A stretch of DNA of 64,000 bases, taken from Bacteroidota bacterium. GTDB taxonomy: Bacteria; Bacteroidota; Bacteroidia; B-17B0; Aurantibacillaceae. Both the position numbers and the translations under genes were made by a program. Location of the stretch: assembly GCA_030684395.1 (NCBI GenBank), contig JAUXTT010000017.1, forward strand, positions 124,001-188,000. The letters are read 5' to 3'. Shown here one piece after another: positions 7,384 through 58,417 of the stretch. Below the pieces are notes generated by a model. It was not told the origin of the DNA, made no database searches, and saw nothing but the letters and a program-made list of their open reading frames with translations. Each line of letters begins with the position of its first letter. The stretch's first letter is position 1.

Positions 7384-7791
7384 CTATGGAATAGAAATGA
7401 AGTTAAATTTTATCCCCACCATTTTCTCTACTTCCTTTCCGGAGTCAAGAATATCTTCATCCTCTTCCTGATGGTACCAATTGATACTAAGGTGCAATTT
7501 ACCGGACGTATCCGATATCTTTTTCAAGCGGTCTATCACTTCCATAAAGATCTTAAGAGAGGAAGAATTAAAATATTCGAGCTTTAGATCCAAATTAATC
7601 ATTTTGCTGGTTTCCGCCGAAGATTGAGCTGCCATTTTATTTTCATACCCATCGATCCATGTAAACAAAGGTGCATAGAAAGCCCTTACATTTTCAGGCC
7701 TGGACTCTCCCTCTATTGTTATTTGATTAGATGAGAAGTCACATTCTATTCCGGGTGTATTAGTTGTTGATTTAATCGCTAAATTTTCCAT
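7384..7791 (-). CDS. siaC: SiaC-family regulatory phosphoprotein (DUF1987)
   Basis: This 135-residue single-domain protein fits the SiaC/DUF1987 family: an N-terminal TPGIECDFSSNQITIEGES element, PEN, and the core LDLKLEYFNSSSLK (67-80). In Pseudomonas SiaC, a threonine is phosphorylated by SiaB and dephosphorylated by the PP2C-like SiaA; the equivalent site here is probably Ser76 in FNSSS. The start overlaps the end of the upstream phosphatase-kinase gene by 20 bases, so the two are translationally linked. No SiaD diguanylate cyclase gene is adjacent, so the output is unknown. Confidence 0.88.
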   Translation of the reverse strand: MENLAIKSTTNTPGIECDFSSNQITIEGESRPENVRAFYAPLFTWIDGYENKMAAQSSAETSKMINLDLKLEYFNSSSLKIFMEVIDRLKKISDTSGKLHLSINWYHQEEDEDILDSGKEVEKMVGIKFNFISIP

Positions 7792-10588
7792 AATCCATTT
7801 TTATATGTGTAAAGTAATAAAATCTTGTATTAACCTTAAATATCTCATGTTTTATATTGCCTTTCGATTGAAGAGCCATATCAAACATTCCAACTCCTGC
7901 ACCACCTTTTTCTGAAAGTCCTGCTCCATCTGCAGCTTTAATAAACATTAGTTCTTTTATTTTTTCCTGATCCTCTTTTTCAATAATATCCATGTGCTTC
8001 TTTAAATTCGGAATATCTTTTTCAGATATAAAATTTCCGAAACTTAGTTCTATGGATTCATTTCCTATTTCAAATTTATGAAAAACTCTCCTGTAATTAT
8101 TCTCCAATGAAGCATGCCTGATCCCATTTTCCAAAGCCTCAACCATAATTGCATAACATTTTTTGCTCACAGCCTTGGCTATCTCAAATTTACTAAGAAT
8201 TTCCTTTGCTTCCGATAAATATGCAGTCAATTCGTTATGGTTAATAACAGTATTGAATTCCTTCACATAAATAGGTTTTCTGATAGTAGAATTTTTCTTT
8301 AGAAAATGTTCTACTTGAACTATTTCACTTAATTCCGGATGAATTTGAATTCCCAATAAGGTTATGTCATCCACCTGATTCCCGTCCTTCATCCACTCGT
8401 CCAATTCTTTATCCATTTTCTCCTTAGCCGTAACCGCATCTTTGGTGTTAAGGTTCATAATCATGTGCTTGAGCTTCTTCGTTCCAAATTTTTTTCCACT
8501 TGCCTTTCCTTTTTGATCAACGATGCCATCTGTATAAAGAAAAATAGATTGTACCTGATTTAGGTTATAGATAACTGTTGAGGGTTCATATACCGCCGGT
8601 GCACTTCCTCCTATGTTTATATTATCAAATTTATTAGTCTCCAGTTTATTGTTAATGTCCTTTACCAATACAGTTGATCCGGAACCTGATACATACAATT
8701 TTTCATGCGTCTTACTTATGCAAATAATACTATAATCGAGTCCAATACTCACATGATCCTTATCGTTATAATATGCGTTAAATTCATGTTTAATATATTC
8801 ATTCAGGCGATGAAGCACTCCGTTATTAGTAATATTATGAATGGTTTTTTCGAGTGATTGTATAGCTAAAACACTTATGATAGCACCCGGAACACCGTGC
8901 CCCGTTGAATCACCAACAGCTACATACATATCACCTCCAATTTCTTTGTACCAGTAAAAATCACCACTAACCACATCTTTTGGTCTATAAAGCAAAACCG
9001 TATCCTTAAAATAATTTTCCGAATTAGTTGGTGATTTCAAAAATGCATTCTGTATTTCTTTTGAATACAAAATACTTTCCCTTATTTCTCTGGATCTTTC
9101 TTCTAATTCATTATGAGTAGATTCAAGGTTTTTGCTTTGTGATTCAATTATAGATTTTTGTTTCTTAATTAACCTGAACCTATTAAAAATAAACAATGCT
9201 GAAAGTATCACTAAACCCAGAATAACAGACAAAGTGATCTGTTTGTTTTCTTCTATTTTAAGTTCTTCTTCATTTGATATATCTGTAATTTTCTTTTGAT
9301 TCTCATAATTCAAACTATCAGCAAGTGCCTTTTTTTCGTAGGCATATTTTAATTCTTGTTTGACCAACTCCTGAGAATTAGCCTTGCTAAGAATACTATC
9401 ATGAATGAGCAAACTAAGCGATTGCATTTCGAGTGCTTTTTTAAAATTCCCCTTCTTTCTATAACAATCAACCAACATCTTACTGGCCTCCTGAATTTGT
9501 TTGGCCGCTTCAATCTTTTCTGAAAGGGCTAAGGCCTTTTCACCATAACTAATTGCGCGGGTCACGTCTCCCATTTTAAAATAAATAGAGCTGACATCAA
9601 TTAAAAATGTGGACTCTCCCAGTTGGTCTCCTATTTCCTGTTTAATTTTTACCGCTTGAAACTCTTTTTCCAGTGCTTCCTTATACTTACCTTGTTTGCT
9701 ATATAATTCGCCAATATTGCCCAACGCATTAGAAATATTTTCCAGGTTATTTTCCTTTTTTGAAAGATCCAATGAAAGATCCAGGTACTTTAAAGAGAGG
9801 TCATACTTTTTTCGATCCATATAAATTGCTCCTATATTTACATAGCAGGTTGCAATTATATTGGTCAGCTTTTCCTCTTTGGCCAATTGAAGGGATTTAT
9901 CAAGGTATTCCAGAGCCTGCTCATCTTTCCCCTGATCTCTATATATGAGCCCAATATTATTGTATGAGATCGCCATCCCTCTCTTGTTCTTAAGCTGTTC
10001 CTTGATCTTTAAAGACGCAAAATGATTTTTAAGCGACTCGGAATAGTTACCCTGTAATGAAAAGATCAAAGCAATATTATTATATGAAGTAGCAATTCCG
10101 GCTTGATCATGAATTGATTTTCGGGCACTTAATGAATTTTGGTGGCAACTTAAGGAAAGTAAATATTCGCCTTTTGAATAATATACATTACCAAGTGTAG
10201 TATAAGTATCTCCGAGATTCTTCCGAATCCTTTTGAAGTTCGTTTTTCCTTCAGCATTTAATTTTTGAAACTCATTTAAAGTAAACACAAGCATCTTTTC
10301 TGCATCAGTAGAATTTCCCAGCGCAAATTGAGCCATTCCGGTAGCAAGATTTGATTCCGCTTCGCCTAAATCATATTGAATAGCTTCCGAAAACTGCAGT
10401 GCTAAAGAAGCGTAGTAAAGTGAGCTGTCAGGATTTTTGTTTTTAAATTCAAATGCCAAACCATTTAATGCATCAATACTCGCTTTCCCATTTCCTTTAC
10501 GTGCTACATTTAATAACGAGTCTTCCTTGCCCGCTTGAGCAAATACATTTACGGATAAAATGAGTAATATTAAGACAACACGCATCAT
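7772..10588 (-). CDS. TPR sensor with fused SpoIIE/PP2C phosphatase and SiaB-like kinase domains
   Basis: This 938-residue protein has a signal peptide (1-17), a periplasmic TPR array (about 30-430), one membrane helix (451-471), a coiled coil (about 472-520), and a PP2C/SpoIIE phosphatase domain (about 525-748) with metal ligands visible as GDSTGHG (Asp560), YTDG (Asp687) and VDD (Asp740-Asp741). The last about 185 residues are not phosphatase: ALENGIRHAS (Glu820, Asn821) and GGAGVG (895-900) resemble the GHKL-type N and G boxes of SiaB kinases. The downstream SiaC overlaps it. I infer one protein that both phosphorylates and dephosphorylates SiaC in response to a periplasmic signal. Phosphatase and TPR are firm; the kinase call is probable. 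Confidence 0.85.
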   Translation of the reverse strand: MMRVVLILLILSVNVFAQAGKEDSLLNVARKGNGKASIDALNGLAFEFKNKNPDSSLYYASLALQFSEAIQYDLGEAESNLATGMAQFALGNSTDAEKMLVFTLNEFQKLNAEGKTNFKRIRKNLGDTYTTLGNVYYSKGEYLLSLSCHQNSLSARKSIHDQAGIATSYNNIALIFSLQGNYSESLKNHFASLKIKEQLKNKRGMAISYNNIGLIYRDQGKDEQALEYLDKSLQLAKEEKLTNIIATCYVNIGAIYMDRKKYDLSLKYLDLSLDLSKKENNLENISNALGNIGELYSKQGKYKEALEKEFQAVKIKQEIGDQLGESTFLIDVSSIYFKMGDVTRAISYGEKALALSEKIEAAKQIQEASKMLVDCYRKKGNFKKALEMQSLSLLIHDSILSKANSQELVKQELKYAYEKKALADSLNYENQKKITDISNEEELKIEENKQITLSVILGLVILSALFIFNRFRLIKKQKSIIESQSKNLESTHNELEERSREIRESILYSKEIQNAFLKSPTNSENYFKDTVLLYRPKDVVSGDFYWYKEIGGDMYVAVGDSTGHGVPGAIISVLAIQSLEKTIHNITNNGVLHRLNEYIKHEFNAYYNDKDHVSIGLDYSIICISKTHEKLYVSGSGSTVLVKDINNKLETNKFDNINIGGSAPAVYEPSTVIYNLNQVQSIFLYTDGIVDQKGKASGKKFGTKKLKHMIMNLNTKDAVTAKEKMDKELDEWMKDGNQVDDITLLGIQIHPELSEIVQVEHFLKKNSTIRKPIYVKEFNTVINHNELTAYLSEAKEILSKFEIAKAVSKKCYAIMVEALENGIRHASLENNYRRVFHKFEIGNESIELSFGNFISEKDIPNLKKHMDIIEKEDQEKIKELMFIKAADGAGLSEKGGAGVGMFDMALQSKGNIKHEIFKVNTRFYYFTHIKMDYGKFSD

Positions 10589-32371: not shown

Positions 32372-34729
32372 CTAAAATCTTATCCCTGCTATCAACACAT
32401 CATCCACCTGTTCCAAATTTCCTCTCCAGCCTTCGATTTCATCATTCAACACTTTTGACTGTTCTGCCATTGATAAATGATTAACGGAAAGCAGGACTTC
32501 TTCCAGTTGCTTGTATTTGAATTTCTTTCCTTTTGGTCCGCCAAACTGATCTGCATACCCATCCGTAAAAACATACAAAGTGTCTCCTGTTTGAACATCA
32601 AATTCGTTTAAGCTGAACGGGTGCATTTTTTCTCCTTTCCCAACAGGCATTTTGTCGGCATTTAATGCAATAATTTTTTTGCCTCTAACTAATAAAGGAA
32701 CATTGTACGCAGCGGCATATTTTATTTTATTGACTTCATTAGCATTGTCAATACACAAAAGAATACCATCCATTCCATCTTGTCTTTCACTTCCGTGTGA
32801 TAGATTCTCAATCAATCTATCGCGCACATGATCAAATATTTTATTCGGCTCCATAATTCCCTTTTCGGTGATGGCCTCATTTAAATAGGAGATATTTAAT
32901 AAACTCATAAATGCCCCGGGAACTCCATGTCCTGTACAATCACAAGCTGCAAAATAAAATTTCCCGCCTTTTTTCGTTGCCCAATAAAAATCGCCACTCA
33001 CTATATCTTTAGGTTTAAAAAGCACAAAATATTCGGGCAGGTTTTCTTTCAATACATCGTCCTGTGCTAACAAAGCGTATTGAATTCGCTGCGCATAATT
33101 AATTGAATCCAGGATCTCTTTATTTTTCTCTTCAATCTCCTCATTTTTACGAGCGAGTTCTTTCCGTTGTTCCTCTACTTCTTCTTTTTGTTTGGATATT
33201 AACTCGTTCTTTTCCTGCAATAATCGGTTAGTTTTTTTTCGCTGAATATTGGAGCGTACTACAAAGCCAATTAACACTATTAGCAGTAATGCGCCTGCTA
33301 AAGCTGCATACAACTGGGTAGATTTTCTTTTAGAGGTTTCTTCCGAAGTTTTTAGTTGCAATGTTTTTTTCTCGTTTTCCGCATTGGCCAATTTAAGTTG
33401 TTGCTCTTTTTTCTGATTTTGATAGATTGCTTCTATTTCTTCCTGCTCTTTTGCATGCTTCTCGTTTCGTATAGAATCGCGGTATAAATTAAATTTTTGC
33501 AAATATTCATAAGCTTTCTCAAATTGTTTTTTTGATGAGGCAATATCCGCAGCTTGTCCATATAAATCAGCATACAAAGAAAAATTCATTTCCGGATTTA
33601 ATAAGCGTAATGCGTTTTGATTATAACTATCGGCTAAACCAATATTTCCCTGACTTTTTGCAAGGTTCGATAAATTAAAATAGTTTACACAAATTCCTGA
33701 AGTATCGCGCATGCTTTGGTTAATGCTCAGTGCTTTTTCATAAAAATTTTTAGCCAATGGTAGCTTTCGTTGTTTTTCATACAGAGAGGCAATGGAATTA
33801 TACACCGAAGAAAGTGCTCCCGAGTGATGAACACTTTCGTACAAGGCTACTGCATCTTTAAAATAAAATTCGCTCGAATCGTACTTACCGGTCTCCTCAT
33901 AAATTTTTCCTTTCAAAAAATAAACATTCCCCTTAATTATTACACTTGGGCTCTTTTCCAGATACTGCAAAGTTAGTGCAGCATACTCTTTTGATTTTTG
34001 ATAATTAGCTTTTTCAAAATATACCTCCGCAATATTATCTGTAGCCATCGCTGCTTTATCCCACAGTTGATACTTTTCGAATGTTTTTAGAGCAGAAAAA
34101 TAATATTGAGTTGCCAGATCAAACTTTCCCTCGGCAAAATATGCATTGGCTATATTGTTAGAAATATCGCCTATCCCAATCTCTGATTCCAATTTACTTG
34201 TTGTATCTTTTTTATAAGCCTCTATTCCTTTTTCAAAATACTCAACGGATTTTTTATTAATTCCGTAAGCCATATAAACAGTTCCCAGATTATTATAAGT
34301 GTCTGCTATTAATAAAGTAAGTTTGGCTTGTTCCGCTTTCTTGAGTGCTCTTTCATAATAGGAAACAGCCTCTTCCAGGGTACCATATCCATAATACAAT
34401 TGTCCAATGTTGTTCAGAATAAATATCTGTACAGAATCATTCTTACATTTTTCTGCATAAACCAATGCTTTTCTATAACACGAATCGGATTTTTCTGCTT
34501 CACCTCTTACATATTGCACATTACCATACATATTGTAGGTACGCGCCAGAAGATATTCATCCCTTTTTGGATTGAGCTTTGGAATAATTTCTTTAATCAG
34601 GAGTTCGGCCGAATCAGGGTTTGCGAAACGCAATGCTTTGGCTTTACTCATAAGTTGTTGTACTGATTGCGCTGATGCAAACAGTGATGCAAACAAAAGC
34701 AAAACGCTACAACTTATTTTGGCGAACAT
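32372..34729 (-). CDS. TPR protein with C-terminal SpoIIE/PP2C phosphatase domain
   Basis: Start ATG 34729 gives a signal peptide (MFAKISCSVLLLFASLFASAQ without a 14-residue leader that the ATG at 34771 would add). A periplasmic TPR array (about 25-400), a coiled coil, a membrane helix near 475-495, a second coiled coil and a PP2C domain follow. Phosphatase motifs: ACDCTGHGVPGAFMS, FTDGYADQFGGPKGKK, EQVDDVLIAG at the very end. It is closely similar in its phosphatase part to the protein at 56054-58417 and lacks the SiaB-like extension of the protein at 7772-10588. No anti-sigma or SiaC gene is adjacent, so the partner is unknown. Confidence 0.88.
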   Translation of the reverse strand: MFAKISCSVLLLFASLFASAQSVQQLMSKAKALRFANPDSAELLIKEIIPKLNPKRDEYLLARTYNMYGNVQYVRGEAEKSDSCYRKALVYAEKCKNDSVQIFILNNIGQLYYGYGTLEEAVSYYERALKKAEQAKLTLLIADTYNNLGTVYMAYGINKKSVEYFEKGIEAYKKDTTSKLESEIGIGDISNNIANAYFAEGKFDLATQYYFSALKTFEKYQLWDKAAMATDNIAEVYFEKANYQKSKEYAALTLQYLEKSPSVIIKGNVYFLKGKIYEETGKYDSSEFYFKDAVALYESVHHSGALSSVYNSIASLYEKQRKLPLAKNFYEKALSINQSMRDTSGICVNYFNLSNLAKSQGNIGLADSYNQNALRLLNPEMNFSLYADLYGQAADIASSKKQFEKAYEYLQKFNLYRDSIRNEKHAKEQEEIEAIYQNQKKEQQLKLANAENEKKTLQLKTSEETSKRKSTQLYAALAGALLLIVLIGFVVRSNIQRKKTNRLLQEKNELISKQKEEVEEQRKELARKNEEIEEKNKEILDSINYAQRIQYALLAQDDVLKENLPEYFVLFKPKDIVSGDFYWATKKGGKFYFAACDCTGHGVPGAFMSLLNISYLNEAITEKGIMEPNKIFDHVRDRLIENLSHGSERQDGMDGILLCIDNANEVNKIKYAAAYNVPLLVRGKKIIALNADKMPVGKGEKMHPFSLNEFDVQTGDTLYVFTDGYADQFGGPKGKKFKYKQLEEVLLSVNHLSMAEQSKVLNDEIEGWRGNLEQVDDVLIAGIRF

Positions 34730-34797
34730 TGAGTAAATGTACAGAAATTTATCTGAATTGATTTGAGGCAAATCATTACTTTTAAGGCAAAAACAAG

Positions 34798-56053: not shown

Positions 56054-58417
56054 CTACACCCTCACTCCTATCACTAAAATATCATCCACTTGTTCCTGTT
56101 CGCCTTTCCATTGATTGATGCTGGCCAATAAAGCATCTTTTTGTTCCTGCATCGGTTTGTTTGTATTAGCAAGAATAACTTCTTCCAATTGTTTGTACTT
56201 AAATTTTTTGCCCTTAGGTCCGCCAAACTGATCTGCATACCCATCAGTAAACGTATAAATAATATCCCCCTTTTCTAGTTGAATGTTTTGATTCCTGAAA
56301 TCCATGGCGTTATCTTCTCCTTTTCCAACAGGCATCTTATCTGCTTTGAATTCGGTTAGCTCATTATTTCTCACAAGCCATAAAGGATTATTAGCCGCTG
56401 CAAAATCAAGTTGGTTGTTTTTCAGATCAAAAGCACAAAGCACGCAATCCATTCCGTCTTTTGAGTTCTCATCACCCTTAGGATTTAAAGCCTTTATTAT
56501 TTCTTTGCGTTGCTCCGTTAATATGTTCCCCGGAAGTTCAATACCCCGTTCAATCACATTCTCGTTTAAAAAATTAATATTCAATAAACTCATGAAAGCT
56601 CCCGGAACACCATGACCTGTGCAATCTGCCGTTGCAATGTAAAATTTATTATGTTGAGCTGCCGCCCAATAAAAATCACCACTCACAATATCTTTAGGTT
56701 GATACAAAATAAAACACTCCGCGCCAAAATATTCGCTTATATAACTTTCACCCGTCAATAAAGCTTGTTGTATCCTCTTGGCATAATGTATACTATCAAG
56801 AATCTCCTTTTGTTTCTCCTCAATAATGTGGTGCTGTTCTTCTGCAATGATCCTTCTGCTATCAGCAAGTTCCCGCTGTTTATCGACTTCCACTTTTTGA
56901 TCTTCAATAATGAATTTTTGTTTGCGCGTTACCCGAAACCGATTATACATAAATGCCGAGAATATCGTTATCAGGGCAATCCCTGCATACAAAGCAAATC
57001 GCTGTGTTTTTTCTTGTTTTAGTTGTGCAGTAACAACCTTTCTTTCCTCTTCCACTCTAACACTATCAGCAGCTGCCTTCTTATCGTATTCATATTGAAA
57101 ACTCTTTTGAAGCGATGCCCGTTTTGTGTTTTCATTGCTTATACTGTCAGACATTAACTTGTGCAACAGAACCATTTCAAAAGCCTCCTTATAGTTTCCT
57201 TTCTTTTCATATATTCTGCTCAAAACAGCACTTGCATGTCTGATATTATCAGGAAAGCCTATCTCCTGTGAAAGCTTGAGCCCCTTTAATCCGTTTTCTT
57301 CAGCCAACTTAAATTCTCCCTGCGCGAATAAAATTTCCGCCATATTGATCATAGAAACGGAGGCTCCCTTTTTATCTTCCGAAATTTGCTGAATAGCTAA
57401 TGCATCTTTAAAATAGTCAAGTGCTTTATTATTGAGAGAGTCCTGCGCCTTTTTATTATTCTTCCATTCTTTTTGTTCAGTGATTTTTTGATAAAGACCT
57501 CCTATATTGATCATAGTTTCTGCAATACCCTGTTTATCTTGCAAAAGTTGTCGTTGTGTCAAACTCTTTTCATAATACTCCAACGCCAGCTTTAAATTTC
57601 CCTCGTTAAAGTATAAATAGCCAATATTATTTAATGTTTGAGCGGCGCCATTTTTATTATTCACTTCCACCTGCAAAGCATAAGCTTTATTAAAGTAGTC
57701 AAGCGCCTTTTTGTAATCGTTTTGTAAAAGGTAAATGGTACCCATATTATTAAACGAATAAGCAATTCCATCTTTGTCACCAATAGCTTCCTTGATCTTT
57801 AAACTCTTGTGATTGTACTCAAGTGATTTTGGAATATCTCCTTGCTGGTCGTATATATAAGCCAAATTACTTAGTGAGCGGGCTTCTCCTTCTTTATCAT
57901 CTACTTCGTGTTGAAGCTCAAGACTCTTTGTTAAACACTCAATCGTTTTTGCTACATCACCTTTTAGTTTGTATGCACTTGCAATATTATTGAGGGAAGT
58001 GGCGAGGTCTCTTTTAATCTCCTTTTGCAGAGCAAGTGATTTAGTACTCTTAAGAAGTTTCTGAAGAATATCGACGCTCTTTTGATTATACTCTATACTT
58101 TGCTTCGGCTCTCCCATAGCGCCCGTCAAATAACCTTTGTTGTTAAAAACGGAGGCAAGATGTTTAGTGTAAAAAAAATATAAAGGATCAGAAGTTTTTA
58201 TAGTCTTCAAATTCTTTTCACAAATAAGTTGTAGCTGATCGTTATAAGCAGGCCATATCAGATCATCGTTTTCGTTTTCAATAATTTGAATAAGTGTTTC
58301 GCAACGAACTGTATCATGCTTAGCTGATTTTAAAACCAACTTTAAACTATCCATAACCTGAGCACGGAAAGGACTGTAAAGAACACTTAAAATGACAATT
58401 AAAATTACTTTCCTCAT
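56054..58417 (-). CDS. TPR protein with C-terminal SpoIIE/PP2C phosphatase domain
   Basis: This 787-residue protein has a signal peptide (1-19), a periplasmic TPR array (about 85-430), a membrane helix near residue 475, a coiled coil, and a PP2C/SpoIIE domain with ATADCTGHGVPGAFMS, FTDGYADQFGGPKGKK and a terminal EQVDDILVIG. It is a close relative of the protein at 32372-34729. No partner gene adjoins it. A broken 3' end of a further SpoIIE gene lies on the opposite strand upstream (58505-58635). Confidence 0.88.
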   Translation of the reverse strand: MRKVILIVILSVLYSPFRAQVMDSLKLVLKSAKHDTVRCETLIQIIENENDDLIWPAYNDQLQLICEKNLKTIKTSDPLYFFYTKHLASVFNNKGYLTGAMGEPKQSIEYNQKSVDILQKLLKSTKSLALQKEIKRDLATSLNNIASAYKLKGDVAKTIECLTKSLELQHEVDDKEGEARSLSNLAYIYDQQGDIPKSLEYNHKSLKIKEAIGDKDGIAYSFNNMGTIYLLQNDYKKALDYFNKAYALQVEVNNKNGAAQTLNNIGYLYFNEGNLKLALEYYEKSLTQRQLLQDKQGIAETMINIGGLYQKITEQKEWKNNKKAQDSLNNKALDYFKDALAIQQISEDKKGASVSMINMAEILFAQGEFKLAEENGLKGLKLSQEIGFPDNIRHASAVLSRIYEKKGNYKEAFEMVLLHKLMSDSISNENTKRASLQKSFQYEYDKKAAADSVRVEEERKVVTAQLKQEKTQRFALYAGIALITIFSAFMYNRFRVTRKQKFIIEDQKVEVDKQRELADSRRIIAEEQHHIIEEKQKEILDSIHYAKRIQQALLTGESYISEYFGAECFILYQPKDIVSGDFYWAAAQHNKFYIATADCTGHGVPGAFMSLLNINFLNENVIERGIELPGNILTEQRKEIIKALNPKGDENSKDGMDCVLCAFDLKNNQLDFAAANNPLWLVRNNELTEFKADKMPVGKGEDNAMDFRNQNIQLEKGDIIYTFTDGYADQFGGPKGKKFKYKQLEEVILANTNKPMQEQKDALLASINQWKGEQEQVDDILVIGVRV

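Follow-up and report, generated by a model that had tools for sequence, protein, structure and literature searches.

The function known for SiaC is to activate a diguanylate cyclase, and c-di-GMP is the messenger controlled by the known switch. In the SiaABC(D) system of Pseudomonas aeruginosa (PMC7647112, PMC8457831), a PP2C membrane sensor, a kinase of the SiaB fold and a SiaC protein with a Ser/Thr site are encoded by genes lying together. The locus described here, found in the window (the whole stretch of 64,000 nucleotides that was analyzed), resembles the Pseudomonas system in these features, but its kinase is fused to the phosphatase, its sensor is of the TPR type, Ser stands in the place of Thr, and neither SiaD nor any GGDEF match was found in the genome to which the window belongs. 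Rv1364c of Mycobacterium tuberculosis (3ke6), as summarized in PMC9138534, also joins a PP2C domain to a GHKL kinase behind it in a single chain, and has a substrate domain of the antagonist type; it differs in its RsbW-type kinase, PAS sensor, STAS substrate within the same chain and link to a sigma factor (PMC9138534), whereas the window's protein possesses a SiaB-type kinase, a TPR/membrane sensor and a separate SiaC. HsbR and CrsR (REC-PP2C-kinase), acting with HsbA and CrsA, are alike in that one protein sets the phosphorylation of a separate small protein, and they differ in the response-regulator input, the kinase of the anti-sigma/RsbW type and the anti-sigma-antagonist substrate, i.e., kinase and substrate belong to other families (PMC6482189).

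As in Rv1364c and HsbR, a PP2C and a GHKL-fold domain are joined in one chain in the window's protein, while the combination of an RsbW (HATPase_c_2) kinase with a STAS substrate was not found in it. Considering the precedents of Rv1364c and HsbR, the PP2C-GHKL fusion alone is no new principle: one-chain phosphatase-kinase switches are known with RsbW-type kinases and STAS-type substrates, while a SiaB-type one was not found in print. In the open-access literature, as judged by titles and abstract openings, neither SpoIIE-SiaB fusions nor SiaC switches of Bacteroidota were found to be the subject of a paper. The larger question exposed by the locus is the role of SiaC in bacteria without c-di-GMP, and the fused sensor with its adjacent SiaC makes the simplest system both for studying the balance of kinase and phosphatase and for the hunt for SiaC partners.

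Architecture of the fused protein and its SiaC

The fused siaA-siaB gene (7772..10588, minus strand, as are all features below) encodes a protein of 938 amino acids, in which the ORF, Pfam and NCBIfam analyses recognized TPR, transmembrane, SpoIIE (PP2C) and SiaB-family kinase regions. Its last 20 bases (7772..7791) overlap siaC (7384..7791, also on the minus strand). Both the overlap, evident from the coordinates of the two ORFs, and the TPR-membrane-PP2C architecture with an extra C-terminal domain, supported by Pfam and hydropathy, had been described in an earlier note made from the sequence. A hydrophobic start resembling a signal peptide (residues 1-19, 10532..10588, hydropathy 2.05) precedes the TPR region (residues about 20-449, 9242..10531), which matched Pfam TPR families and, according to hydropathy, is probably periplasmic; the sole transmembrane segment (residues about 450-470, 9179..9241) coincides with the hydropathy maximum of 2.45. 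The SpoIIE/PP2C domain was recognized by Pfam at residues 551-749 (8342..8938, E 8e-17) and is related to the crystallized SiaA domain 6k4e (E 8e-20). The motifs of the metal site, the roles of whose residues were taken from PMC7647112, were located at positions 542 (GDFYW, just before the Pfam span), 559 (GDSTGHG), 685 (YTDG) and 739 (VDDITL). The NCBIfam SiaA model matched residues 481-749 with E 2.7e-34, which is under NCBI's curated cut-off.

The C-terminal domain (residues 749-938 as modelled, 7775..8344) was analyzed by Pfam, structure modelling, and fold and profile searches. DUF6272 (PF19788, the SiaB family) matched residues 803-926 with E 6e-16 and 58.7 bits, well over the cut-off of 26.6, while the NCBIfam model SiaB_fam_kinase (NF038262) matched residues 778-927 with E 6e-12 and 45.4 bits against a cut-off of 85, so by its score the domain is not assignable to this narrower model. 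Plain phmmer of the domain against PDB sequences gave no meaningful match, and profile and fold searches were needed. The structural model, built on two sequences only (that of the window and one close orthologue), had a mean pLDDT of 76 and a pTM of 0.75; the pLDDT falls below 50 at model residues 137-148. The top Foldseek match of the modelled domain in the PDB was the SiaB chain of 6kko, a SiaB-SiaC complex (E 3.6e-8), and in a VIA-align comparison with 1000 chains 6kko_A (Pseudomonas SiaB) ranked first, with Z 17.1 and 2.4 Å over 154 residues. A profile of 16 SiaB domains, the window's included, found 6kko_A as the sole PDB match at E <=0.1 (E 4.6e-26). By the model and these searches, the C-terminal domain belongs with SiaB.

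The chains ranked next by VIA-align were SigF-anti-sigma, RsbW and SpoIIAB (Z 11.8 and below, about 10.5-11.8), and the RsbW domain of Rv1364c (3ke6) gave Z 10.8. These second-best folds, and the way in which HsbR and CrsR are described to work (PMC6482189), would be in line with a partner switch of the RsbU/RsbW type acting on a sigma factor, in which the C-terminal domain would also serve as an anti-sigma factor. We regard such a switch as highly improbable, because SiaB is clearly the best fold match, HATPase_c_2 scored 11.8 bits on the domain against a cut-off of 27.4, and the partner gene belongs to the SiaC family rather than to STAS.

Residue conservation was counted over 34 SiaB domains, with one sequence entered twice (as L104 and L112). 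The N box spans Glu817-His825 (8114..8140), and Glu817 and Asn821 are each kept in 33 of the 34 domains; the earlier note had placed the box at Glu820/Asn821, of which Asn821 holds, but position 820, Glu in the window's protein, is Gln in 26/34, the conserved Glu being 817. The G box GGAGVG was correctly located at residues 895-900 (7889..7906), and its Gly900 is invariant (34/34). The ATP-site residues Glu817, Asn821, Asn852 and Gly900 are thus all present in the fused domain according to the alignment, as would be expected of a domain that binds ATP; a loss of ATP binding was one of the two refutations named in advance. The other was a fold unlike SiaB in a structure prediction; with 6kko_A being the best match in the PDB for the modelled domain (Z 17.1, the second-ranked chain reaching 11.8), the proposal came through this test.

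The siaC gene encodes 135 amino acids and was assigned to the SiaC-family regulatory phosphoproteins by Pfam (PF09345, E 1e-30, 106 bits over a cut-off of 24.5) and by its relation to the crystallized Pseudomonas SiaC (6kko/6k4f/7e6g, E 1.7e-12); its NCBIfam SiaC match (E 1e-20) is under the curated cut-off. Since the NCBIfam cut-offs were missed for SiaA, SiaB and SiaC alike, these models do not certify functional equivalence. In P. aeruginosa, Thr68 of SiaC is reported to be phosphorylated by SiaB and dephosphorylated by SiaA (PMC7647112). In the alignment, this column is occupied in the window's SiaC by Ser76 (codon 7564..7566), i.e., by a phosphorylatable residue of the Ser/Thr kind, as in 25 of the 28 SiaC rows (L104 and L112 again being one sequence twice); the remaining three rows are L016, with Asn, L017, with Ile, and one poorly aligned domain of L153.

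Taken together, these data make it probable that the protein unites in one piece the sensor of a phospho-switch of the SiaABC type, in which a TPR sensor, a PP2C phosphatase and a SiaB-type kinase act on the adjacent SiaC. The periplasmic TPR region would read a signal and relay it via the single membrane helix to the cytoplasmic PP2C and SiaB domains, and these, if their activities and substrate are as predicted from sequence, would act oppositely on Ser76 of the SiaC whose gene overlaps their own; through such opposite actions of one protein the signal would set how much of the SiaC is phosphorylated. The fused SiaB domain has diverged, however (its identity to 14 of the 15 other aligned SiaB domains is 18-25%), the genome contains six more DUF6272 matches, and one SiaB of the genome is degenerate (L015:6619-7191, with the N-box Glu and Asn lost; it adjoins an intact SiaB and is possibly its pseudokinase partner). 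These facts would suit a domain which is no longer a kinase and only docks SiaC by the phosphatase, SiaC being phosphorylated by another SiaB. We consider this unlikely, given that the four ATP-site residues are kept and that the fused domain sits in its own complete siaA-siaB-siaC set. The preferred reading is that both activities would reside in the fused protein and would be directed to the window's SiaC.

Origin and distribution of the fusion

Among the matches listed, the one closest to the C-terminal domain, with 53% identity, comes from SYEI01000235.1 (G069; Bacteroidota MAG F1-60-MAGs036, loci L104/L112). The operon of this contig is orthologous to that of the window and encodes a SiaC of equal length with the same YFNSSS site, but siaA and siaB are separate in it: the end of siaA overlaps by 4 bases with siaB, a gene of its own for 180 amino acids, and siaC follows, giving three unfused genes.

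All three frames were read at the fusion junction of the window (residues about 745-760, 8309..8356). The frame of the fused gene is open throughout, with neither a stop nor an ATG, GTG or TTG for a separate siaB, and it agrees with the unfused orthologue on either side up to the junction, while stops abound in the two remaining frames. The fused and unfused junctions differ in length by one base, which could be imitated by a single indel error; a sequencing or assembly error joining two genes is nevertheless scarcely credible, considering the agreement of the frame on both sides, the lack of a siaB start at the junction, the stops in the other frames and the uninterrupted fusions in two other genomes. 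An assembly or frame error was hence rejected on the reading of the junction. As far as the compared sequences tell, the fusion is genuine and a derived state; it would have arisen in the window's lineage from an operon in which siaA and siaB overlapped.

In the SiaB tree, the domains of the window and of G069 form a pair with the support of 100/100. They belong to a group of four siaA-siaB-siaC loci; the genes are fused only in that of the window and separate in the three others (L104, L107, L152). All four have Ser at the SiaC phosphosite. The base of this group is less sure because of a long branch in it, on which the program issued a warning.

The class was surveyed in 395 genomes with a profile from two fused proteins (those of the window and G005) and up to 4 candidates scored per genome. 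Uninterrupted SpoIIE-SiaB fusions were found in at least three of these genomes, namely the window's genome, G005 (1060 aa) and G122 (1540 aa, SpoIIE with two SiaB domains), and as the three lie in separate branches of the tree, the fusion arose more than once. Ten further top-scoring matches among those listed span both domains with internal stop codons, and in all nine of these loci that were annotated (all but G240) adjacent separate genes were recognized. A full-protein scan of the named genomes gave one close relative (L112) and four relatives on the phosphatase side with neither SiaB nor SiaC in the fetched stretch.

Sia proteins without GGDEF and candidate outputs

The earlier note had remarked that no diguanylate cyclase is adjacent to the locus and that the output has to be a different one or lie elsewhere. 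The first remark was confirmed and extended: GGDEF gave no match adjacent to the locus or anywhere in the window's genome (98.9% complete), while the control search found it in 8 of 14 known genomes; SiaD, the partner of SiaC in the Pseudomonas-type system, is accordingly missing, and the second remark gains strength. In the order, a single genome of 87 (G071) gave a GGDEF match, in a frame of 118 aa interrupted by a stop, and this was taken as doubtful. SiaB domains (DUF6272) and SiaC were each found in at least 85 of the same 87 genomes. Thus virtually no GGDEF proteins are present, yet the kinase-phosphatase-SiaC set is kept, and consequently SiaC must have other partners. The unphosphorylated (or phosphorylated) SiaC of the window may then bind a partner encoded elsewhere and other than a GGDEF diguanylate cyclase.

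The window's genome contains 6 SiaC and 7 SiaB-domain matches (the fused protein included), 5 STAS matches at E <=0.01, two of them in frames as short as 129 and 116 aa, and, among 19 HATPase_c_2 matches, one RsbW-like protein in a short frame (141 aa). STAS and RsbW-type partners were absent at the window locus. The 4.9-Mb genome also has 63 SpoIIE matches, which far outnumber the SiaC and STAS candidate substrates; three SpoIIE ORFs, all on the minus strand, lie within the window (7772-10588, 32372-34771 and 56054-58417).

When the window locus was searched for a partner, none was found: its neighbours, read by eye, are genes resembling a DEAD-box helicase and a cation-efflux protein, and they are absent at L104, L107 and L152. 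A paralogous Sia locus of the same genome (L015) consists of a SpoIIE gene, two siaB and two siaC genes, followed by a 995-aa ABC transporter, with an apparent chemotaxis operon (read by eye) upstream of the Sia genes. The gene order is equal in G295, G434 and G101, ending in similar transporters; TerB was matched in the G295 transporter, and that of G434 fell just below the TerB cut-off. A profile of the first 260 aa of four transporters matched in 196 of 395 genomes, and among the 30 best transporter loci fetched, 17 had siaC on the same strand in the 1.5-kb upstream flank (13/26 without the four query loci, all of them positive). DUF1987 proteins were suggested to modulate adjacent proteins in the eLife paper on SiaD (PMC8457831). 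Judged by this gene arrangement, the TerB-ABC transporter is a candidate for a c-di-GMP-free output of SiaC. The window locus has no transporter neighbour, so the transporter does not qualify as the output for the window's own SiaC.

It is conceivable, and we put it forward tentatively at somewhat less than even chances, that SiaABC in this order, and probably more widely in the class, forms a self-standing phospho-switch network without c-di-GMP, in which dozens of SpoIIE sensors would converge on a handful of SiaC proteins whose partners would be other machines, including the TerB-ABC transporter whose gene comes after siaC in several families; the protein of the window would be the tightest form of the input stage, one chain, reached several times independently.

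Several further arrangements of Sia genes were observed. At L015:5303-11505 (G000 C41), siaC lies just upstream of the TerB-like/ABC-2 transporter of about 1000 aa, and siaC directly precedes such transporters in several Bacteroidia families (L148, L150, L151, among L172-L201). The SiaC paralogues L016:8244-8636 and L017:8780-9172, with Asn and Ile at the phosphosite, respectively, are for this reason apparently not switchable; after the L017 siaC come a gene resembling an aminotransferase and two TPR-SpoIIE genes. Tandem double-SiaB proteins are encoded at L018:8056-9183, L106:5235-6356 and L151:6715-7857, the copy in the window's own genome having no adjacent siaC. Finally, a lone SiaB gene stands beside a deoxynucleoside-kinase-like gene in several genera of the order (L019:7975-8556, L108, L110, L111).
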